Source of the DNA: Planobispora longispora
GTDB taxonomy: Bacteria; Actinomycetota; Actinomycetes; Streptosporangiales; Streptosporangiaceae
Assembly (NCBI RefSeq): GCF_016863135.1
Contig: NZ_BOOH01000026.1
Location: 1-64,000 of the forward strand
Direction: 5' to 3'
Length of the DNA stretch: 64,000 nucleotides
The translations under genes were made by a program, and so were the position numbers. Below are positions 38,863-47,710 of the stretch, one piece after another (positions within the stretch are counted from its first letter, which is position 1; every line of letters begins with the position of its first letter). The notes below the pieces were generated by a model. The model did not search any database. It had not been told where the DNA came from and was given only the letters and a program-made list of their open reading frames with translations.

Positions 38863-40341
38863 GTGGCGATGGAGATCGAAGACAAGTTCGACGTCCCGGC
38901 GGACTACGAGATTCCCGACCTGACGGGTCTGCCGGGCTGCGACGACATAGTCGGCCCTCGATCCCACCAGCTCGTGGCGATCTACTTCGACACCCCCGAC
39001 CTCAGGCTCGCCGCGCGCGGCATCACCCTGCGGCGGCGCAGGGGCGGCACCGATCCCGGCTGGCACCTGAAACTGCCCAAGACCAGAGGCGCCCGGCAGG
39101 AGATCACCCACCCGCTGACCCGGAGCATCAAGACGGTGCCGCCGGAGCTGGCCGACCTGGTCCTCGCCTTCACCCGGGGCGCCCCGCTCGTCCCCGTCGC
39201 CGAGCTCGACACCCGCCGCTCGGTCACCCTGCTGCGCAACGGCGCGGGCGTGACGCTCGTGGAGGTCGCCGACGACCGGGTCAAGGGCACCGTGCTCGGC
39301 GAGGAGCCGCACGTCGAGCGCTGGCGCGAGGTCGAGGCCGAGCTGGGCACGGGCGACGGGAAGCTGCTGGAGCGGGTCGGCAAGCGGCTCCGCAAGGCCG
39401 GGGCGAGCCCCGCCGGATCGTCCAGCAAGCTGGCCCGCCTGCTCGGCGCCGCCCGCGAGATCCCCGCGGTCCGGGTCGCCAAGACCGGGAAGGGGAGCGC
39501 CGGTGAGATCATCGTCGGTTATCTGTCCTCCCAGGTGGCGGCCCTGTTCTCCCAGGACCCCCGGGTACGGCGGGCCGAGCCGGACGCCGTGCACCAGATG
39601 CGCGTGGCCTGCCGCCGGATGCGCAGCGCGCTCAAGTCCTTCAGGAAGATCGCCGAGAACACCGAGCCCCTGCAGGAGGAGCTCAAGTGGCTGGGCGGGG
39701 TCCTCGGCGAGGCACGCGACCTGGAGGTCATCCGCGACCGGTTCTCCCACGCCCTCGACTCCCTGGACGGCGAGCTGATCGTGGGGCCGGTTCGCTCCCG
39801 GCTCGGCTCCGACCTGCTGGACGACGAGCAGGAGGCGTACGAGCGGATCAGACAGGCGCTCACCGGCGAACGGTACTTCGCCCTGCTCGACGCCCTCGAC
39901 GACCTGGTCGCGGCCCCTCAGCTCACCAAGGCGGCCGCCAAGCCCGCCGCGACCCTCGAGGCCGTCGCCGCCAAGAGCTGGCGCCGGGTCACCCGCGCCT
40001 ACGGCGCCGCCCAGGCCGTCGAGGACCCGGACAAGCGAGAGACCGCCATGCACGAGGTGCGCAAGGCCGCCAAACGCGCCCGCTACACCGCCGAGGTGCT
40101 CGGCATGTCCGAGCTGGCCGACCGGGCGGAGGCCGTGCAGGACGTGCTGGGCGCCCACCGGGACGGCCTGGTCGCCCAGGAGCGGCTCACCGCGGAGGCC
40201 GGGCGGGCGCGGCAGGCGGGGGAGGACACCTTCACCTACGGCGTCCTGACGGGCCTCGAACGGGCCCGGGCCGCGCGCGCCTCCAAGGAGTTCCCCGGCG
40301 TGTGGGAGAAGACCACCCAGGCGGTCGCCAAGCTCCTGTGA
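38863..40341 (+). CDS. CYTH-CHAD domain protein (polyphosphate-associated)
   Basis: A 492-aa two-domain protein. The N-terminal CYTH tunnel domain (residues 1-200) has the ExExK-type motif EIEDKF, LAARGITLRRRRGG, GWHLKLPK and VEAELGTGD, which bind triphosphate and metal. The CHAD domain (about 215-490) has paired helices with conserved His/Arg, HQMRVACRRMRSALKSF and HEVRKAAKRARYTAEVL, known to bind polyphosphate. It lies next to the ppk/Nudix operon (opposite strand), which strengthens the polyphosphate assignment. GTG 38863 or ATG 38869 is the start. Confidence 0.9.
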   Translation: MAMEIEDKFDVPADYEIPDLTGLPGCDDIVGPRSHQLVAIYFDTPDLRLAARGITLRRRRGGTDPGWHLKLPKTRGARQEITHPLTRSIKTVPPELADLVLAFTRGAPLVPVAELDTRRSVTLLRNGAGVTLVEVADDRVKGTVLGEEPHVERWREVEAELGTGDGKLLERVGKRLRKAGASPAGSSSKLARLLGAAREIPAVRVAKTGKGSAGEIIVGYLSSQVAALFSQDPRVRRAEPDAVHQMRVACRRMRSALKSFRKIAENTEPLQEELKWLGGVLGEARDLEVIRDRFSHALDSLDGELIVGPVRSRLGSDLLDDEQEAYERIRQALTGERYFALLDALDDLVAAPQLTKAAAKPAATLEAVAAKSWRRVTRAYGAAQAVEDPDKRETAMHEVRKAAKRARYTAEVLGMSELADRAEAVQDVLGAHRDGLVAQERLTAEAGRARQAGEDTFTYGVLTGLERARAARASKEFPGVWEKTTQAVAKLL

Positions 40342-40483
40342 CCGCCGCCGCACGACGGACGGCAGGATGTGGGTCGGGGCCGCGGGCGGTGTGACGGGCC
40401 TCTTCAGGACGTACGGTGAAACCGCGGGCGGTGTGACGGAGCCTGTCAGCCGGGCGTCGGGGCCGCGGGCGGTGCGAGGGGCC

Positions 40484-41362
40484 TCAGGTCGTGTAACGGT
40501 CCATCGCCACGACCCGGCCCCCGGCGCGGTGCAGGACCAGGAACGCGCCCTTGCGCAGGTGCGAGTCGGCGGGCCGGTCGACGATCCCGGAGATCAGCTC
40601 GGTGAGCACCTTGCCGTGGCTGCACAGCGCCGCCGGCCGGTCCGCGGACAGCGCCTCGGCGACCAGGCGGCGTGAGGCCCGGAGGTCGTAGTCGCGCTCC
40701 GAGAGCAGGGGCTCGTGGCGGATCTCCAGCCCGGCCCGCTCGGCGTACGGCTCCAGGGTCTGCACGCAGCGCCTGCTCGGCGAGCTGACCAGCTCCACCG
40801 GGCGGTAGCCGTACAGGGCGTCCGCGAGCACCCCGGCCTGGGCCGTGCCGGTCTCGTCCAGCGGGCGCAGGTCGTCGTCGCCCCGCCACTCCTGGCGCGA
40901 ACCGGCCACGCCGTGCCGGACCAGCAGCAGCGGCGTGGTCGTCAGCGGGAGCGCGGTGAGCGCGCGGAGCAGACCGGCGTCCCACTCGTAGGTCAGCCGC
41001 CGCCGGGCCTCCTCCAGCGGCACCCAGGCCACCTCGTCGACCTCGTCCAGTCCGGTGTGCCGGCCGTCCGAGACCGCGCGGGCCAGCCAGTAGTCGACCC
41101 GCTTGAGCCGGCCGCCCTTCATGTAGTGGACCGGCGGGAGCAGCCGGCCCAGGACGACCGCGGCCCCCGTCTCCTCGGCCACCTCGCGCAGCGCGCCGCC
41201 GATCACGTGCTCGCCGGGCTTCAGCTTGCCCTTGGGGAAGGTCCAGTCGTCGTACTTGGGCCGGTGGACGAGGGCGACCTCCGGGGCCGACTCCTCGCCC
41301 CGCCACACCACCGCCCCGGCCGCGCGGATCACGTCGGTCGGGTGGACGTCGGGCTCAGTCAT
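40484..41362 (-). CDS. Nudix hydrolase fused to histidine phosphatase (MutT1-like)
   Basis: A 292-aa bifunctional protein. The Nudix box starts [12 protein letters not shown] and continues [11 protein letters not shown] (residues ~45-67), fitting GX5EX7REUXEEXGU. The C-terminal half begins [15 protein letters not shown] (RHG catalytic His near 145) and ends in [12 protein letters not shown], a phosphoglycerate-mutase-type histidine phosphatase. Mycobacterial MutT1 has this architecture and degrades 8-oxo-(d)GTP and diadenosine polyphosphates. The start codon overlaps the end of ppk by 8 bp, so it is coupled to polyphosphate synthesis. Confidence 0.9.
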
Positions 41363-43418
41363 CGATGGTCCTCCATCGGCGGGTGCCGATCAGGTGGCTC
41401 TGCAGGTCGTCGCCGGTGTGCCGGGTCCAGGAACCGTCCGCGTTGAGCCACCACGTCGCCGTGGTGTCCGCCATCGCCCGGTCGAGGAGATCGCCCAGGT
41501 AGGACCGTTGCTGCTGGCTGACGACCTTGACCAGCGCCTCCACCCGGCGGTCCAGGTTGCGCCGCATCAGGTCGGCGCTGCCGATCCAGATCTCCGGACG
41601 GCGGCCCTGGCCGAACTCGTAGATCCGCGAGTGCTCCAGGAACCGGCCCAGCACGCTTCTGACCCGGATGTTGTCCGACAGTCCGGGGATACCCGGCCGC
41701 AGCGTGCACACTCCTCGAACCCACAGGTCCACCGGGACGCCCGCCTGCGACGCCCGGTAGAGGGCGTCGATGATCGGCTCGTCCACCAGGGAGTTCGTCT
41801 TCATCCGGATCCTGGCCGGACGGCCCGCCAGCGCGTGGGAGATCTCCCGCTCGACCCTGGCCAGCAGCCCGCCCCGGAGCGAGTGCGGGGCGACCAGCAG
41901 CCGCCGGTAGGCCGAGTGGTTGGAGTATCCCGTCAGGTGGATGAACAGGTCCGTGACGTCCTCGCCGACGAGCGGGTCGGCGGTCAGCAACCCCAGGTCC
42001 TCGTACATCCGGGCGGTCTTGGGGTTGTAGTTGCCGGTGCCGATGTGGCAGTAGCTGCGCAGCTCCCCGGAGGACTCCTGGCGGACGACCAGGGCCAGCT
42101 TGCAGTGGGTCTTCAGGCCCACCACGCCGTAGACCACGTGGCACCCGGCCCGCTCCAGCTTGCGCGCCCAGCTGATGTTGGCGTGCTCGTCGAACCGCGC
42201 CTTGATCTCCACCACCACGACGACCTGCTTGCCCGCCTCGGCCGCGTCGATCAGCGCGTCCACGATCGGGGAGTCGCCGCTGGTCCGGTAGAGCGTCTGC
42301 TTGATCGCCAGCACGTTCGGGTCGGCGGCGGCCTGCTCGATGAAGCGCTGCACGCTCGTGGCGAACGAGTCGTACGGATGGTGCAGCAGCACGTCCCGCT
42401 CGCGGAGCACCGCGAAGATGTCGTCCTCGACGTGGACGACCTCCGCGGGCACGAACGGGCGGAAGCTCAGCTCCCCCCGGTCCAGGTCGGCGATCGTGTG
42501 CAGCCCGGTGAGGTCGAGCGGGCCGGGCAGCCGGTAGATCTCGTGCTCGGCCACGCCGAGCTCCTCCACCAGCAGCTCCAGCACGCCCGGCGTGATGCTG
42601 TCCTCCACCTCCAGCCGGACCGGCGGGCCGAAGCGCCGCTTGAGCAGCTCCTTCTCCAGCGCCTGCATGAGGTTCTCGGTGACGTCCTCGTCCACCTCGA
42701 GATCCTCGTTCCGGGTGACCCGGAAGACATGGTGCTCGACGATCTCCATGCCCTTGAAGAGCTGGCCCAGGTGGGCCGCGATCACGTCTTCGAGCGGGAC
42801 GAACCGGTCCCTGGACACCGCGACGAAGCGGGGCAGCCGGCCCGGCACCTTCACCCGGGCGAACACCGTGTGCCCGGTCGAGGGGTTCCGGACCGTCACG
42901 GCGAGGTTGAGGGAGAGACCCGAAATGTAGGGGAACGGGTGGGCGGGATCGACGGCCAGCGGCGTCAGCACCGGCCGGATCCGCTCCCGGAACAGCTTGC
43001 GCATCTCGGTGCGCTCGTCGCGGCTCAGATCGTCCCAGCGGACGATCACGATGCCCTCGGCGGCGAGCTGCGGAGAGACCCGCTCGTGGAAGCAGGTCGC
43101 GTGCCGCTGCGCCAGCTCGTCGGCGATGGCGGCGATCCTGGCCAGCTCCTCGCGGGGCTTCATCCCGCTCTTGGTGCGCAGCAGCAGGCCGGTGGCCATC
43201 CGTCGTTTCAGCCCGGCCACCCGTACCCGGAAGAACTCGTCCAGGTTGCTGGCGAAGATCGCCAGAAAGCGGACCCGCTCCAGCAACGGCAGGGACGGGT
43301 CCTCCGCCAGCTCCAGGACACGCTGGTTGAACTGGAGCCAGCTCTCTTCCCGGTTGAGGAAGCGCTCCTGTGGGAGAGGTGGCCCTTCTGGGGCAGGATG
43401 CACGGGTTCGACGGACAT
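41355..43418 (-). CDS. ppk: Polyphosphate kinase 1
   Basis: A 687-aa PPK1 that reversibly makes polyphosphate from ATP. The N domain begins [20 protein letters not shown], then [20 protein letters not shown]. The catalytic core holds [65 protein letters not shown] (with the autophosphorylated His) and [22 protein letters not shown] 43418 lacks a strong ribosome binding site. It is downstream of the TetR gene (46 bp) and overlaps the Nudix gene. The ppk-mutT1 pair is conserved in mycobacteria. Confidence 0.95.
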
Positions 43419-43463: not shown

Positions 43464-44486
43464 TCAACGGCTGCTGTTGCTTGCCCGCTCAGCCTCCCTG
43501 GCCTCGCGGATCCGGGCCCGCTCCAGCTCGCGCTGCTCGCGCTCGCGGGCCTTCTCGGCCTCGCGAAGCTCCCGCTCGCGCGCCCTCTCCTGCTCACGCG
43601 CCAGTTTCTCGGCCTCGCGCTGCTCGCGCTCGCGGATCTTCTCCTGCTCCTTCAGCTCGCGCAGCCGCGCCTTCTCGGCCTCGCGCGCCAGTTTCTCGGC
43701 CTCACGCAGCTCGCGCTCGCGGATCTTCTCCCGCTCCTTCAGCTCGCGCTCGCGGGCCTTCTCGGCCTCGCGCAGCTCGCGCTCCCTGGCGCGCTCGCGC
43801 TCGCGCAGCTCCTTCTCGGTCGGGCGCGGCAGGAGCGGCGCCCGCCGCTCCTCGATCAGCCGGGAGCCGGAGGTCAGGCGGGGCTGCGGGTTCAGGCCCG
43901 TCAGCCCGTTCCACGCGAGGTTGACCAGGTGCGCGGCCACCTCCTCGCGCGAGGGCCGCCGCACGTCCAGCCACCACTGGCCGGTCAGCGCCACCATGCC
44001 GACCAGCATCTGGGCGTACATCGGCGCCAGCTTCGGGTCGTAGCCGCGCCCGGCGAACTCGTCGACCATGACATCCTCGACCTGGCTGGCGATGTCGTTG
44101 ATCAGGCTGGCGAACGTGCCCGTGCCCGACGCCGCGTGGGAGTCGCGGACCAGGATCCGGAAGCCCTCGCTGTTCTCCTCCACGTAGGCCAGCAGCGCCA
44201 GCGCGGCCCGCTCCAGCTTCACCAGCGCGTGCGAGGCCGACAGGGCCTCGGTGACCATGCCGAGCAGCTTCTGCATCTCGCGGTCGACGACGACGGCGTA
44301 GACGCCCTCCTTGCCGCCGAAGTGCTCGTAGACCACCGGCTTGGAGACGTTGGCGGTCGCCGCTATCTCCTCGACCGAGGTGCCGTCGAACCCCTTCTCC
44401 GCGAACAGGGTCCGGCTGATCTGGATCAGCTGCTCCCGGCGCTCCTTGCCGGTCATCCTTCGTCGGGGTTCGCTCACAGTTCCCAT
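43464..44486 (-). CDS. TetR regulator with a ~115-residue ER/K-rich helical tail
   Basis: A 340-aa regulator, against about 200 for most TetR proteins. HTH: SRTLFAEKGFDGTSVEEIAA and VSKPVVYEHFGGKEGVYAVV (residues 25-68); ligand-binding domain to about residue 215. Residues ~223-336 are almost only Glu, Arg, Ala, Lys and Leu in repeats such as ELREAEKARERELKEREKI. This would form a stable single alpha helix or long coiled coil. Start ATG 44486 or GTG 44477. It lies upstream of ppk on the same strand. The tail could be a spacer, a dimer extension or an RNA/DNA-binding arm; none is proven. Confidence 0.85.
   Translation of the reverse strand: MGTVSEPRRRMTGKERREQLIQISRTLFAEKGFDGTSVEEIAATANVSKPVVYEHFGGKEGVYAVVVDREMQKLLGMVTEALSASHALVKLERAALALLAYVEENSEGFRILVRDSHAASGTGTFASLINDIASQVEDVMVDEFAGRGYDPKLAPMYAQMLVGMVALTGQWWLDVRRPSREEVAAHLVNLAWNGLTGLNPQPRLTSGSRLIEERRAPLLPRPTEKELRERERARERELREAEKARERELKEREKIRERELREAEKLAREAEKARLRELKEQEKIREREQREAEKLAREQERARERELREAEKAREREQRELERARIREAREAERASNSSR
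43500..43815. repeat. Imperfect repeats encoding the charged TetR tail
   Basis: Irregular repetition of GCTCGCGCTCGCG-, GGCCTTCTCGGCCTCGCG- and CGCCAGTTTCTCGGCCTC-type words on the + strand. The repeats keep frame and encode the ER/K tail. Slippage here would lengthen or shorten the helix. Confidence 0.8.
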
Positions 44487-44664: not shown

Positions 44665-45609
44665 TCAGGAGGCAATGCGCTTCGCCGCCAGCCGCTCGGG
44701 GGTGGGCCAGCGGACGTCGTGGGCCCAGCCGAACCTCTCGAACCAGCGGATCATGCCGGCGCTGAGGTCGATCTGCCCCTTCAGCGCGCCGTGGCGGGCG
44801 CACGTCGGGTCGGAGTGGTGCAGGTTGTGCCAGGACTCGCCGAAGGACGGGATGGCCAGCCACCACACGTTCCGCGACTTGTCGCGCGACTCGAAGGCCT
44901 CCTCGCCGAAGACGTGGCAGATGGAGTTGATCGACCAGGTCACGTGGTGGAGCAGGCCGATGCGGACCAGCGTGCCCCAGAAGAAACCGGTCGCCGCGCC
45001 CTGCCACGACCAGGTCAGCAGGCCGCCCAGCACCGCCGGGGCCGTCATCGAGAAGATCGCCAGCGCCGGGAACCACTTGTGCAGCTTGATGATGTCCGGG
45101 TCCTTGACCAGGTCGGGGGCGTACTTCTCGCGGTTGGCGCGAGTGGACTCGAACAGCCAGCCCATGTGCGCCCAGAGCAGGCCCTTGGCCAGCGACCAGA
45201 AGCCGGGGCCGAACCGCCACGGCGAGTGCGGGTCGCCGTCCTTGTCGGAGAACTTGTGGTGCTTGCGGTGGGTGGCCACCCAGTCCAGCACCGACATCTC
45301 CAGCGAGAGGCTGCCCGCGATGCCCAGCGCGAGCTTCAGCGGGCGCTTGGCCTTGAAGGAGCCGTGCGTGAAGTAGCGGTGGAACCCGACGGTGACGCCC
45401 AGCCCGGACACCAGGTAGAAGACGCCGGCGATCACGACGTCGGTCCAGCCCAGTAGTCCCCACCCCCAGGCGATGGGGACGGCGGCGGCCAGGGCGACCA
45501 GCGGCGCCCCCACGACCACGCCGAAGGTGATGAGCTCGGGTGTGGTCTTCAGCTCCGGGTCGATGTCCGGCTTGGGCCCTGGGGTGGGACGGTCCGTGGT
45601 GACTGTCAT
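44665..45609 (-). CDS. Acyl-CoA/fatty-acid delta-9 desaturase
   Basis: A 314-aa membrane di-iron desaturase. The three histidine boxes are GFHRYFTHGSF, ATHRKHHKFSDKDGDPHSP and SWHNLHHSDPTCARHG. Hydrophobic pairs lie near residues 30-70 and 165-210. The enzyme introduces a double bond into saturated acyl chains (stearoyl-type) to adjust membrane fluidity. ATG 45609 has GAGG six bases upstream. A 22-bp palindrome about 55 bp upstream suggests TetR-type control; the neighbouring TetR at 43464 is one candidate regulator. Confidence 0.9.
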   Translation of the reverse strand: MTVTTDRPTPGPKPDIDPELKTTPELITFGVVVGAPLVALAAAVPIAWGWGLLGWTDVVIAGVFYLVSGLGVTVGFHRYFTHGSFKAKRPLKLALGIAGSLSLEMSVLDWVATHRKHHKFSDKDGDPHSPWRFGPGFWSLAKGLLWAHMGWLFESTRANREKYAPDLVKDPDIIKLHKWFPALAIFSMTAPAVLGGLLTWSWQGAATGFFWGTLVRIGLLHHVTWSINSICHVFGEEAFESRDKSRNVWWLAIPSFGESWHNLHHSDPTCARHGALKGQIDLSAGMIRWFERFGWAHDVRWPTPERLAAKRIAS

Positions 45610-45661
45610 GCGCTACCTCGCGGTTGGAGAAGGATGGACCTTTTGTCCGGCTACGCAACCG

Positions 45662-45683
45662 TAACCTACGCTAGAGTAAGTTA
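45662..45683. promoter_or_regulatory. 22-bp palindrome upstream of the desaturase
   Basis: TAACCTACGCT and AGAGTAAGTTA (centre CTAG) match in 9 of 11 symmetric positions. Inner TACG...AGTA elements resemble operators of actinobacterial lipid-gene TetR repressors; that resemblance is from memory. It is the only symmetric element in the promoter. Confidence 0.55.
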
Positions 45684-46019
45684 GGAGTGGCCAAGAACCA
45701 ACACGACTTCGCTGGGAATTTCCTGGCACGGGCGAACCTTGCTTCCAGCTCTTCTGACCTGGTAAGGAACGAGCCCTGTACGTCTGCCCCGCCGGACGGT
45801 CGCTAATCCACCGTTCCGGGACGGGTGGTGGCCGCGAAGTGTCCGCGCCGACGGCGCGAGGGGCGGGCGGCGGGGACGGCCGGACGGCGGAGCCGGCGGC
45901 TGATGGCCGGACGGCGGAGCCGGCGGCTGATCCATAAAGGGGCGAGTCGCCTGGCTTATCGGTAAGGTGGGGACGGAGCGGTTCTGTCAGGTCGTGACCT
46001 GTGAGAACCGTCCGGGCGA
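45684..46019. other. Non-coding stretch before tRNA-Gln
   Basis: About 335 bp without a supportable gene. It contains a perfect 27-bp tandem duplication and presumably the tRNA promoter. Nothing else recognised. Confidence 0.5.
45878..45931. repeat. Perfect 27-bp tandem duplication upstream of tRNA-Gln
   Basis: 45878-45904 is repeated exactly at 45905-45931 (unit begins GGCCGGACGGCGG and ends GGCTGAT). Confidence 0.92.
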
Positions 46020-46255: not shown

Positions 46256-47710
46256 GTGAGTGTGCCGCGCCCGGCCGCCGTCATCGTCCTCGCCGCAGGC
46301 GAGGGCACCCGGATGAAATCGAAAACACCCAAAATCCTGCACGAGCTGTGCGGTCGCACCCTGGTGGACCACATGCTCACCGCCGCTCGAGGTCTCGAAC
46401 CCGAGCGGCTCATTGTTGTCATCGGCCACGGGCGGGAGCGGGTCGGCGCGCATCTGGCGCTCACCAGTCCCGACGCGCAGACCGTGGTCCAGGCCGAACA
46501 GCGGGGCACGGGGCACGCGGTCCGGACCGTCCTGGAGGAGGTCGGGGCCGTCGAGGGCACGGTGCTGGTGACGTACGGCGACACGCCGCTGCTGCGCACG
46601 AGCACTCTCGCCGGGCTGCTGGAGCGGCACGCCGGGGAGGGCAACGCCGTCACGGTCCTCACCGCGGAGGTCCCGGACCCGCACGGGTACGGGCGGATCG
46701 TCCGCGACGGGACCGGGGCCGTGCTGGAGATCGTCGAGGAGAAGGACGCCACCGCGGAGCAGCGGGCGATCCGGGAGATGAACTCGGGCGTCTACGCCTT
46801 CGACGGCGCGCTGCTGGCCGACGCGGTCAAGCGGGTCTCCACCGCCAACGTCCAGGGGGAGGAGTACCTCACCGACGTCCTGTCGATCCTGCGCCGGGAC
46901 GGTCACCGGGTCGGCGCGTACGTCGCGGCCGACCACGTCGAGGTCGAGGGCGTCAACGACCGGGTCCAGCTGGCGTTCGCGCGCAAGGTGCTCAACTCCC
47001 GGCTGCTGGAGGCGCACATGCGGGCGGGCGTGACGGTGGTGGACCCGGACAGCACGTGGGTGGACGCGGACGTCGTCCTGGAGCAGGACGTCCTGCTGCA
47101 CCCGGGCACGCAGCTGCACGGCCGCACGTCGGTGGGCGAGGGGGCCGAGATCGGGCCGGCGACCACGCTGACGGACACGGTGGTCGGCGAGGGCGCGGTG
47201 GTGCGCAACGCCGTCTGCGTGGAGGCGGAGATCGGGCCGGAGGCCATGGTGGGGCCGTACGCCTACCTGCGCCCGGGCACCGTGCTGGCCCGCAAGGCGA
47301 AGGCCGGGACGTACGTCGAGATGAAGAACGCCCGGGTGGGCGAGGGCTCGAAGGTTCCGCACCTGACCTATGTGGGCGACGCCACCCTCGGGGCAGGGGT
47401 GAACATCGGGGCCTCGTCGGTGTTCGTCAACTACGACGGCGTCAGCAAGCACCACACGACGGTGGGGGACCACGCGTTCGTGGGGTGCGACACCATGCTC
47501 GTCGCGCCGGTGGACATCGGCGACGGCGCTTACACCGCCGCGGGCTCGGTCATCGCCAGCGACGTCCCTCCGGGGGCGATGGGGGTGGCCCGGGCGCGGC
47601 AGCGCAACATCGAAGGGTGGACGGCGCGCAAGCGGCCGGGCACCAGATCGGCGGAGGCGGCGCAGCGCGCGGCCGAGGCCGGAGATCAGCAGGGGAGCAC
47701 CTCCACATGA
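46256..47710 (+). CDS. glmU: Bifunctional GlcNAc-1-P uridylyltransferase / GlcN-1-P acetyltransferase
   Basis: A 484-aa enzyme giving UDP-GlcNAc for peptidoglycan and surface glycans. The N-terminal pyrophosphorylase domain has VIVLAAGEGTRMKSKTPKIL, EQRGTGHAVRTVLEE and YGDTPLL. The C-terminal left-handed beta-helix has hexapeptide repeats (VGEGAEIGPATTL, AEIGPEAMVGPYAYLRPGTV) and the acetyl-transfer site with HLTYVGDATLG and NYDGVSKHHTTVGDHAFVG. The GTG start at 46256 has AGGGAG upstream. Overlaps prs by 4 bp. Its product could also feed the polysaccharide locus at 50454 onwards. Confidence 0.95.
   Translation: MSVPRPAAVIVLAAGEGTRMKSKTPKILHELCGRTLVDHMLTAARGLEPERLIVVIGHGRERVGAHLALTSPDAQTVVQAEQRGTGHAVRTVLEEVGAVEGTVLVTYGDTPLLRTSTLAGLLERHAGEGNAVTVLTAEVPDPHGYGRIVRDGTGAVLEIVEEKDATAEQRAIREMNSGVYAFDGALLADAVKRVSTANVQGEEYLTDVLSILRRDGHRVGAYVAADHVEVEGVNDRVQLAFARKVLNSRLLEAHMRAGVTVVDPDSTWVDADVVLEQDVLLHPGTQLHGRTSVGEGAEIGPATTLTDTVVGEGAVVRNAVCVEAEIGPEAMVGPYAYLRPGTVLARKAKAGTYVEMKNARVGEGSKVPHLTYVGDATLGAGVNIGASSVFVNYDGVSKHHTTVGDHAFVGCDTMLVAPVDIGDGAYTAAGSVIASDVPPGAMGVARARQRNIEGWTARKRPGTRSAEAAQRAAEAGDQQGSTST

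Follow-up and report, generated by a model that had tools for sequence, protein, structure and literature searches.

We analyzed a 64,000-nucleotide stretch of the Planobispora longispora genome (contig NZ_BOOH01000026.1, positions 1 to 64,000; hereafter the window), and focused on a gene for a TetR-family regulator that carries a long charged helix at its C terminus. Computation revealed this tail, its charge pattern and its single inferred origin, as well as a conserved neighbouring gene and a conserved DNA motif. The gene, the parts of its product and the features upstream of it are as follows.

43464..44486, minus strand: TetR-family regulator with a C-terminal charged helix, 340 aa, ATG start; Pfam TetR_N, TetR_C_46 and TetR_C_32
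43887..44486, minus strand: conserved TetR core, residues 1-200; orthologues are 51-89 percent identical within phylum and family
43818..43886, minus strand: Pro-containing linker, residues 201-223, of which 214-222 are the low-confidence part in AlphaFold2
43470..43817, minus strand: tail helix, residues 224-339, with hendecad-type repeats
44665..45609, minus strand: membrane fatty-acid desaturase (PF00487), upstream of the TetR gene on the same strand with a gap of 178 nt
45651..45680, minus strand: predicted operator with the exact core CGTAGGTTACG at 45660-45670, 41 nt upstream of the desaturase start

PF00440, PF21943 and PF19344 all scored above their cut-offs and the fold matches agreed, which places the protein in the TetR family. 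Over the core, the best NCBIfam model (NF053731, 101.7 bits), the best PDB sequence match (6o6p, from M. tuberculosis, E 1.5e-23) and the best Foldseek match (E 3.8e-8; template-modelling (TM) score 0.39 by query and 0.66 by target) were all FasR. FasR (Rv3208) is described as an acyl-coenzyme A (acyl-CoA)-sensing TetR-fold regulator of M. tuberculosis (PMC7382501). Its identity to the core is about 30 percent, however, and its extension is N-terminal, whereas the one here is C-terminal. We rejected identity with the FasR equivalog on the basis of 101.7 bits against the curated cut-off of 330 for NF053731, and identity with the FabR equivalog because the FabR model was absent from the 21 NCBIfam families matching at E 0.001; the mycobacterial-type orthologue scored 29 against 151 on the FabR model. 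The protein falls into a desaturase-linked TetR orthologous group, which is recognized by a same-strand upstream desaturase and a CGTARGTTACG operator, both present here.

Of 170 loci, 167 have the desaturase upstream of the TetR gene and on the same strand (76/76 with long tails, 13/13 with mid-length tails and 78/81 tailless), counts that include one duplicate (L118 = L001) and class L153 and L163 as long. The same holds for 22 of 29 more distant orthologues. Some loci come from the same genomes, and locus counts here and below are not counts of independent species. The predicted operator is an array, for example TTACG-ATGG-CGTAGGTTACG-GTTG-CGTAG, and the 9-mer TAACCTACG/CGTAGGTTA precedes the desaturase in 141 of 155 loci (50/60 tailed, 14/14 mid, 76/79 tailless and 1/2 remaining).

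We then looked at where this motif stands elsewhere. The 8.84-Mb genome holds four exact copies of the 11-mer CGTARGTTACG, against one for the reversed-pattern control. Three precede genes, namely those for the desaturase here and for an acyl-acyl carrier protein (acyl-ACP) desaturase (PF03405), and trhA (PF03006, TIGR01065); the fourth is near a GNAT gene. The trhA gene, of the PAQR/HlyIII family, is directly abutted by the operator (L188:2401-3078; C36:89078-89108). Each of 14 other genomes (7 long-tailed, the rest mid, tailless or not classed) has a site about 1.1 kb upstream of its TetR gene; sites abut trhA in 10/14, four of these tailless (loci L194, L196, L201, L204, L205, L208, L210, L213, L215 and L216), and an acyl-ACP desaturase in at least 4/14. 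Sorted by locus, the 27 site-bearing loci of these genomes comprise 11 with the desaturase, 10 with trhA, 4 with the acyl-ACP desaturase and 2 with none of these. In eight genomes of other families, for which the reversed control gave one match, the pattern stands before trhA in L258, L260 and L275, before an acyl-ACP desaturase in L252 and before a desaturase in L250; in those of GTDB family f4, among the desaturase loci inspected, it precedes a DesA3-type desaturase (PF00487) in L261 and L257 and its flavin/2Fe-2S reductase in L253 and L261.

Tailless homologues with the same function, which the sequence-only reading had named as evidence that would count against it, are largely what we found, as they keep the same desaturase neighbour and the same operator. 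The predicted core function therefore does not need the tail; this does not imply that the tail is idle.

The sequence-only reading had described about 115 C-terminal residues consisting almost wholly of Glu, Arg, Ala, Lys and Leu. This was borne out, with 105 of 114 residues of the tail stretch being of these kinds (38 E, 31 R, 16 A, 10 K, 10 L) and no Asp, Gly, aromatic, Cys or His among them. It had also called the tail Arg-rich; Arg does exceed Lys (31:10), but with 41 basic and 38 acidic residues the net charge is only +3. AlphaFold2 (38 sequences, mean predicted local distance difference test (pLDDT) 80, predicted TM score 0.53), which does not distinguish a lone from a paired helix, predicted residues 224-339 as one unbroken helix, with ten-residue pLDDT blocks of 68 at the start and 84-97 from residue 231. 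The tail is 68 percent charged, and its predicted helix has the long uninterrupted Glu/Arg/Lys (ER/K) course expected of a single alpha-helix.

To obtain expected numbers of charge pairs, we made 5000 composition-preserving shuffles of the tail. Opposite charges were enriched at i+1 (48 pairs vs 27.4 expected), i+3 (44 vs 26.9) and i+8 (41 vs 25.7), and depleted at i+2 (9 vs 27.1) and at i+7. At i+4, where the earlier reading had seen blocks of paired charges, there were 22 pairs vs 26.6 expected. The combined opposite-minus-same score at i+3 and i+4 was reached by 240 of the 5000 shuffles, so this classical measure is only weakly above chance. Over 72 distinct long tails the mean z was +3.8 (i+1), +3.5 (i+3), +3.1 (i+8) and -0.6 (i+4), and the pattern is common to 70 of them, L153 and L163 being the exceptions. 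A myosin-VI fragment used as control (PDB 6obi, a known single helix) gave +5.9 at i+4, +2.1 at i+3, -2.9 at i+1 and -4.6 at i+8; it is enriched at both i+3 and i+4, whereas the tail is enriched at i+3 and not at i+4. We therefore rejected a classical ER/K helix with i/i+4 pairing on the shuffles and the control. What survives of the earlier prediction is one charged helix, without the canonical pattern.

These results bear on the idea of a classical ER/K single alpha-helix that acts as a rigid lever reaching a partner such as RNA polymerase. The composition and the predicted single helix would suit such a lever, as would ion pairs at i+3, a spacing that PMC5812594 treats as helix-stabilising. 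However, i+4 pairs are not enriched, and the order of charges is the reverse of what the myosin-VI control shows. Beyond the helix there is no conserved domain or motif, and tail lengths differ more than twofold. We consider this lever improbable. A lever for a terminal domain was rejected separately, since by eye no conserved end was seen in the tails inspected.

The tail is repetitive, with a self-identity of 0.52 at lag 11 and 0.61 at lag 29, both above chance. Its dominant repeats are of 11, 18 and 29 residues, and the units begin mostly with EK, with an 11-mer consensus of E-K-A-R-E-R-E-L-K/R-E-Q/A and interspersed 7-residue units. Spacings from EK to EK (n=390, up to 40 residues, 70 tails) were in helical phase in 97.4 percent of cases vs 23.9 percent in shuffles, and the share in phase was 73.6 percent for E[KR] and 53.0 percent for ER. 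Identity autocorrelation tracked the helix phase modestly (r 0.39). A periodicity of about 3.63 residues was found for Lys/Arg in 97 percent of 70 tails, for A/L/I/V/M/F/Q in 91 percent and for Glu/Asp in none; the tails share ancestry and repeats, and these counts are not independent trials.

Such a periodic stripe and the 11-residue units would be compatible with weak dimeric or higher-order packing, in which the tails within a dimer, or those of neighbouring operator-bound dimers, would use the Ala/Leu/Gln stripe to associate in a straight coiled coil of hendecad type. The two tails of one dimer would be close together, and the tandem half-sites suggest more than one dimer per operator. Large hydrophobics are scarce, however, which speaks against an ordinary coiled coil: in the best register the LIVMFYW fraction had a median over tails of 0.20 (heptad) and 0.21 (hendecad), and was 0.15 and 0.19 in this tail, as compared without a canonical coiled-coil control. 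The linker before the helix is also predicted with low confidence. We regard such packing as rather unlikely. The ordinary coiled coil itself was rejected for its low core hydrophobicity, a judgement made without a coiled-coil positive control or a dedicated predictor. Thus the comparison of coiled coil and single helix that had been suggested as a check speaks against the former, although a weak A/L/Q stripe stays. By sequence, no solved structure resembling the tail was found in the PDB at E 1, a weak negative for so low-complexity a query, and in its own genome the tail matched only itself at E 0.01, where the composition correction may hide others.

The TetR protein was matched at E 1e-60 in 194 of 200 genomes of its own GTDB family and at E 1e-40 in 57 of 246 genomes drawn over the phylum; of the 194, tails were examined in 30 loci and in 60 regions picked to span genera. 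When L153 and L163 are counted as mid and the duplicate is dropped, 169 loci divide into 81 tailless (7-15 residues past the core), 15 mid (32-144 residues, the first 45 basic) and 73 long (82-193 residues). Loci of Streptomyces and Nocardiopsis were tailless, those of Actinomadura mid and those of named Streptosporangiaceae long. Outside the GTDB family, 29 orthologues end 4-22 residues past the core and offer no counterpart, in keeping with the earlier view that a long continuous charged helix is unusual on a TetR. In a tree of 124 cores (quick search, midpoint root, about three quarters of the tailless loci L059-L117 omitted and identical cores merged), the 67 long rows need one change (Shimodaira-Hasegawa-like approximate likelihood ratio test 88), implying a single origin of the long tail, in Streptosporangiaceae. 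The piece after the core is net positive in 41/42 distinct tailless, 13/15 mid and 68/70 long sequences.

As a separate observation, the Actinomadura-type orthologues (L071, L081, L085, L110, L114, L153, L163, L166, L168 and L175) have a different tail, basic and Lys/Ala-rich, of about 40-60 residues. Two of these tails continue into long acidic stretches.

Selection on the tail was assessed in two ways. In 70 distinct tails the ratios were 1815:94 for E:D, 812:11 for K:N and 547:28 for Q:H, compared with 1267:595, 502:255 and 487:299 in the cores. Over 225 related gene pairs in gapped alignments, the median ratio of nonsynonymous to synonymous differences (pN/pS) was 0.34 for tails (quartiles 0.19 and 0.47; maximum 0.90) and 0.077 for cores, and in 15 same-length pairs it was 0 to 0.27. 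Tail values below 1 yet above those of the core imply that the tail is constrained, much less than the core.

We wondered whether the tail might be a near-neutral expansion of a GC-rich, helix-compatible repeat (GAGCGC-like), grown by slippage and recombination, in which selection keeps the tail soluble and helical and there is no positive function. The spread of tail lengths points that way, as do the tandem repeats of 33 and 87 bp in the tail-coding DNA, the excess of tail over core pN/pS with some pairs up to 0.90, and an unconserved C-terminal end past the helix. In addition, gaps in the tail alignments most often measure 11 residues (82 cases), which is the length of the repeat unit, with 4, 7, 2, 1, 18 and 3 next in order. 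On the other hand, none of the 67 sampled rows has lost the tail, pN/pS stays below 1, the same charge pattern occurs in 70/72 tails, and D, N, P and G are nearly absent even though one wobble change suffices to turn E into D or K into N. We consider repeat expansion unlikely on balance, though a serious contender.

Taking these results together, the best explanation, to which we give an even chance, is a FasR-like, probably acyl-CoA- or acyl-ACP-sensing regulator of desaturation with a lineage-specific helical arm that is dispensable for the basic function. In what follows, DNA binding, the ligand, the sign of regulation and everything on the action of the arm are what we infer. The TetR of this orthologous group would control the supply of unsaturated fatty acids. 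By analogy with FasR and MadR, the likely ligand of its FasR-like core dimer is a long acyl-CoA or acyl-ACP, which would govern whether the dimer occupies the TACG-N4-CGTA half-site array before the membrane desaturase, the soluble acyl-ACP desaturase and trhA. Repression is likely from the examples of FabR and MadR.

A single event in Streptosporangiaceae would have added to this core a flexible linker with Pro and, after it, a C-terminal helix some 60-140 residues long. In the present protein the helix has 116 residues and would span about 170 A at 1.5 A per residue. It is not of the classical E4K4 kind: it consists of units of 11 and 7 residues in which charges pair at i+1 and i+3, and Lys/Arg is predicted to form a ridge on one face, separated by Glu from a weak Ala/Leu/Gln stripe on the opposite face. 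As a solvent-exposed arm, it may use the basic ridge for weak contacts, either sequence-independently with DNA beside the operator or with a neighbouring dimer, thereby tuning the bound time. This action of the arm is the one we favour, with a confidence well short of even, and repeat expansion and weak helix pairing are close rivals. More tentative still is the proposal that the tail is a distinct natural charged helix, namely a straight mixed-charge arm made of hendecads, with i+1/i+3/i+8 charge order, a basic ridge and flanking Glu, through which a lipid-sensing bacterial regulator makes a second, sequence-independent contact with DNA or a polyanion, and that it was fixed once in Streptosporangiaceae and kept since; we consider this unlikely.

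Several points weigh against this interpretation. FasR, the nearest match, is an activator (of fas-acpS in M. tuberculosis) and not a repressor, and no sigma-70-like promoter was found at the operator, leaving promoter overlap, and hence repression, without support there. The 9-mer is missing from 14 of 155 upstream regions, 10 of those tailed, and an operator search allowing 2 mismatches in the 14 genomes was noisy (60 strand-matches vs 27 for the reversed control). The fourth site of the own genome (C29:30224-30234, L189) lies between two genes with no visible lipid link, one adjoining gene being the GNAT acetyltransferase, and is possibly a chance occurrence. As for the arm, the tails do not keep a constant length, short indels of 1-3 residues are frequent (81 among those listed), and [AL]RE spacings show no phase preference (27.2 vs 26.3 percent). 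The mean net charge of long tails is only about +4.5, and the net-charge moment is significant in just 19 percent of tails (p 0.095 in this tail), because Glu flanks the basic ridge.

A charged helix next to a DNA-binding domain has a known parallel. The Lys/Glu/Arg (KER) single alpha-helix of CAF-1 binds DNA, and like the tail it is an E/K/R helix beside a DNA-binding domain, with basic residues on one face; the single helix of myosin-7a, by the same account, does not bind DNA (PMC10335832), which again weighs against DNA contact by the arm. Composition alone therefore decides nothing. The tail also differs from KER in being nearly neutral, with charge pairs at i+1 and i+3.

Known lipid regulators offer further comparisons. 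E. coli FabR is a TetR regulator that represses fabA, fabB and trhA (PMC9017321). The predicted regulon here resembles that of FabR, with a TetR over unsaturated-fatty-acid genes and trhA, but the FabR enzymes are FabA/FabB and those here are oxygen-dependent desaturases, so the working is similar and the protein is not a FabR member. MadR (Rv0472c), a TetR repressor of desA1/desA2 that is released by saturated C16-C24 acyl-CoAs (PMC8872791), shares the control of acyl desaturases. Judged by gene location and not by alignment, orthology with MadR is unlikely, because the mycobacterial-type orthologue sits elsewhere, between glmU and mfd.

That orthologue, in the f4 genomes, is 65 percent identical over 198 residues and lies in the glmU-mfd interval, which we take to be the position of Rv1019; the same operator motif occurs in those genomes. 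It is probably an Rv1019-type TetR. It is tailless (ending in DPQLEGE or similar) and has no desaturase beside it, whereas the protein here has both. Rv1019 itself is cited in PMC9579286 as a reported repressor of mfd-mazG. In the f4 genomes L253, L256, L257 and L261, the operator motif of the DesA3-type desaturase lies far from the TetR gene. In L251 (G259), the motif stands directly before a gene for a PlsC-type acyltransferase (PF01553).

Literature searches, made without full texts, found no description of such a tail on a TetR. The individual parts are of known kinds; a lipid-type TetR joined to a long mixed-charge helix of hendecad type turned up neither in those searches nor among PDB sequences. 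The operator and regulon give an Actinomycetota-wide regulator group a testable function, namely setting membrane unsaturation, and trhA belongs to the predicted set as it does to that of E. coli FabR. For the mycobacterial-type members, the predicted targets are the genes of a DesA3-type desaturase and its reductase. The tails form a natural series of helices, graded in length and unusual in charge order on an otherwise constant protein, and this suits asking what charged helices do for DNA-binding proteins.

Two further genes flank the region.

41355..43418, minus strand: polyphosphate kinase ppk1, 45 nt downstream of the TetR stop; it adjoins in part of the tailed clade only
46256..47710, plus strand: glmU, named from sequence and position, a syntenic marker of the orthologous group that is near the TetR gene in many relatives

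The adjacent ppk had led the sequence-only reading to name polyphosphate as one possible target of the tail. Such a tie would agree with the presence of ppk downstream in 60 of the 72 long-tailed loci whose DNA extends far enough and in 0/94 shorter-tailed loci with room, and with the excess of Arg over Lys. It fits poorly with the 12 long-tailed loci that have room and no ppk, among them L139 and L137, which branch deepest among the tailed rows when the tree is rooted at its midpoint, and with the small net charge; moreover, the constant neighbour is the desaturase. The suggested link was not upheld, and we regard polyphosphate binding as very improbable. The ppk gene is an incidental neighbour, its adjacency and the tail occurring in the same clade.

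Beside ppk, at 38863-41362, a CHAD+CYTH protein and a Nudix/histidine-phosphatase fusion are encoded, resembling a polyphosphate-type cluster. Between tRNA-Gln and the desaturase, at 45870-45932, two nearly adjacent direct copies of a GC-rich sequence of about 27 bp were seen by eye.
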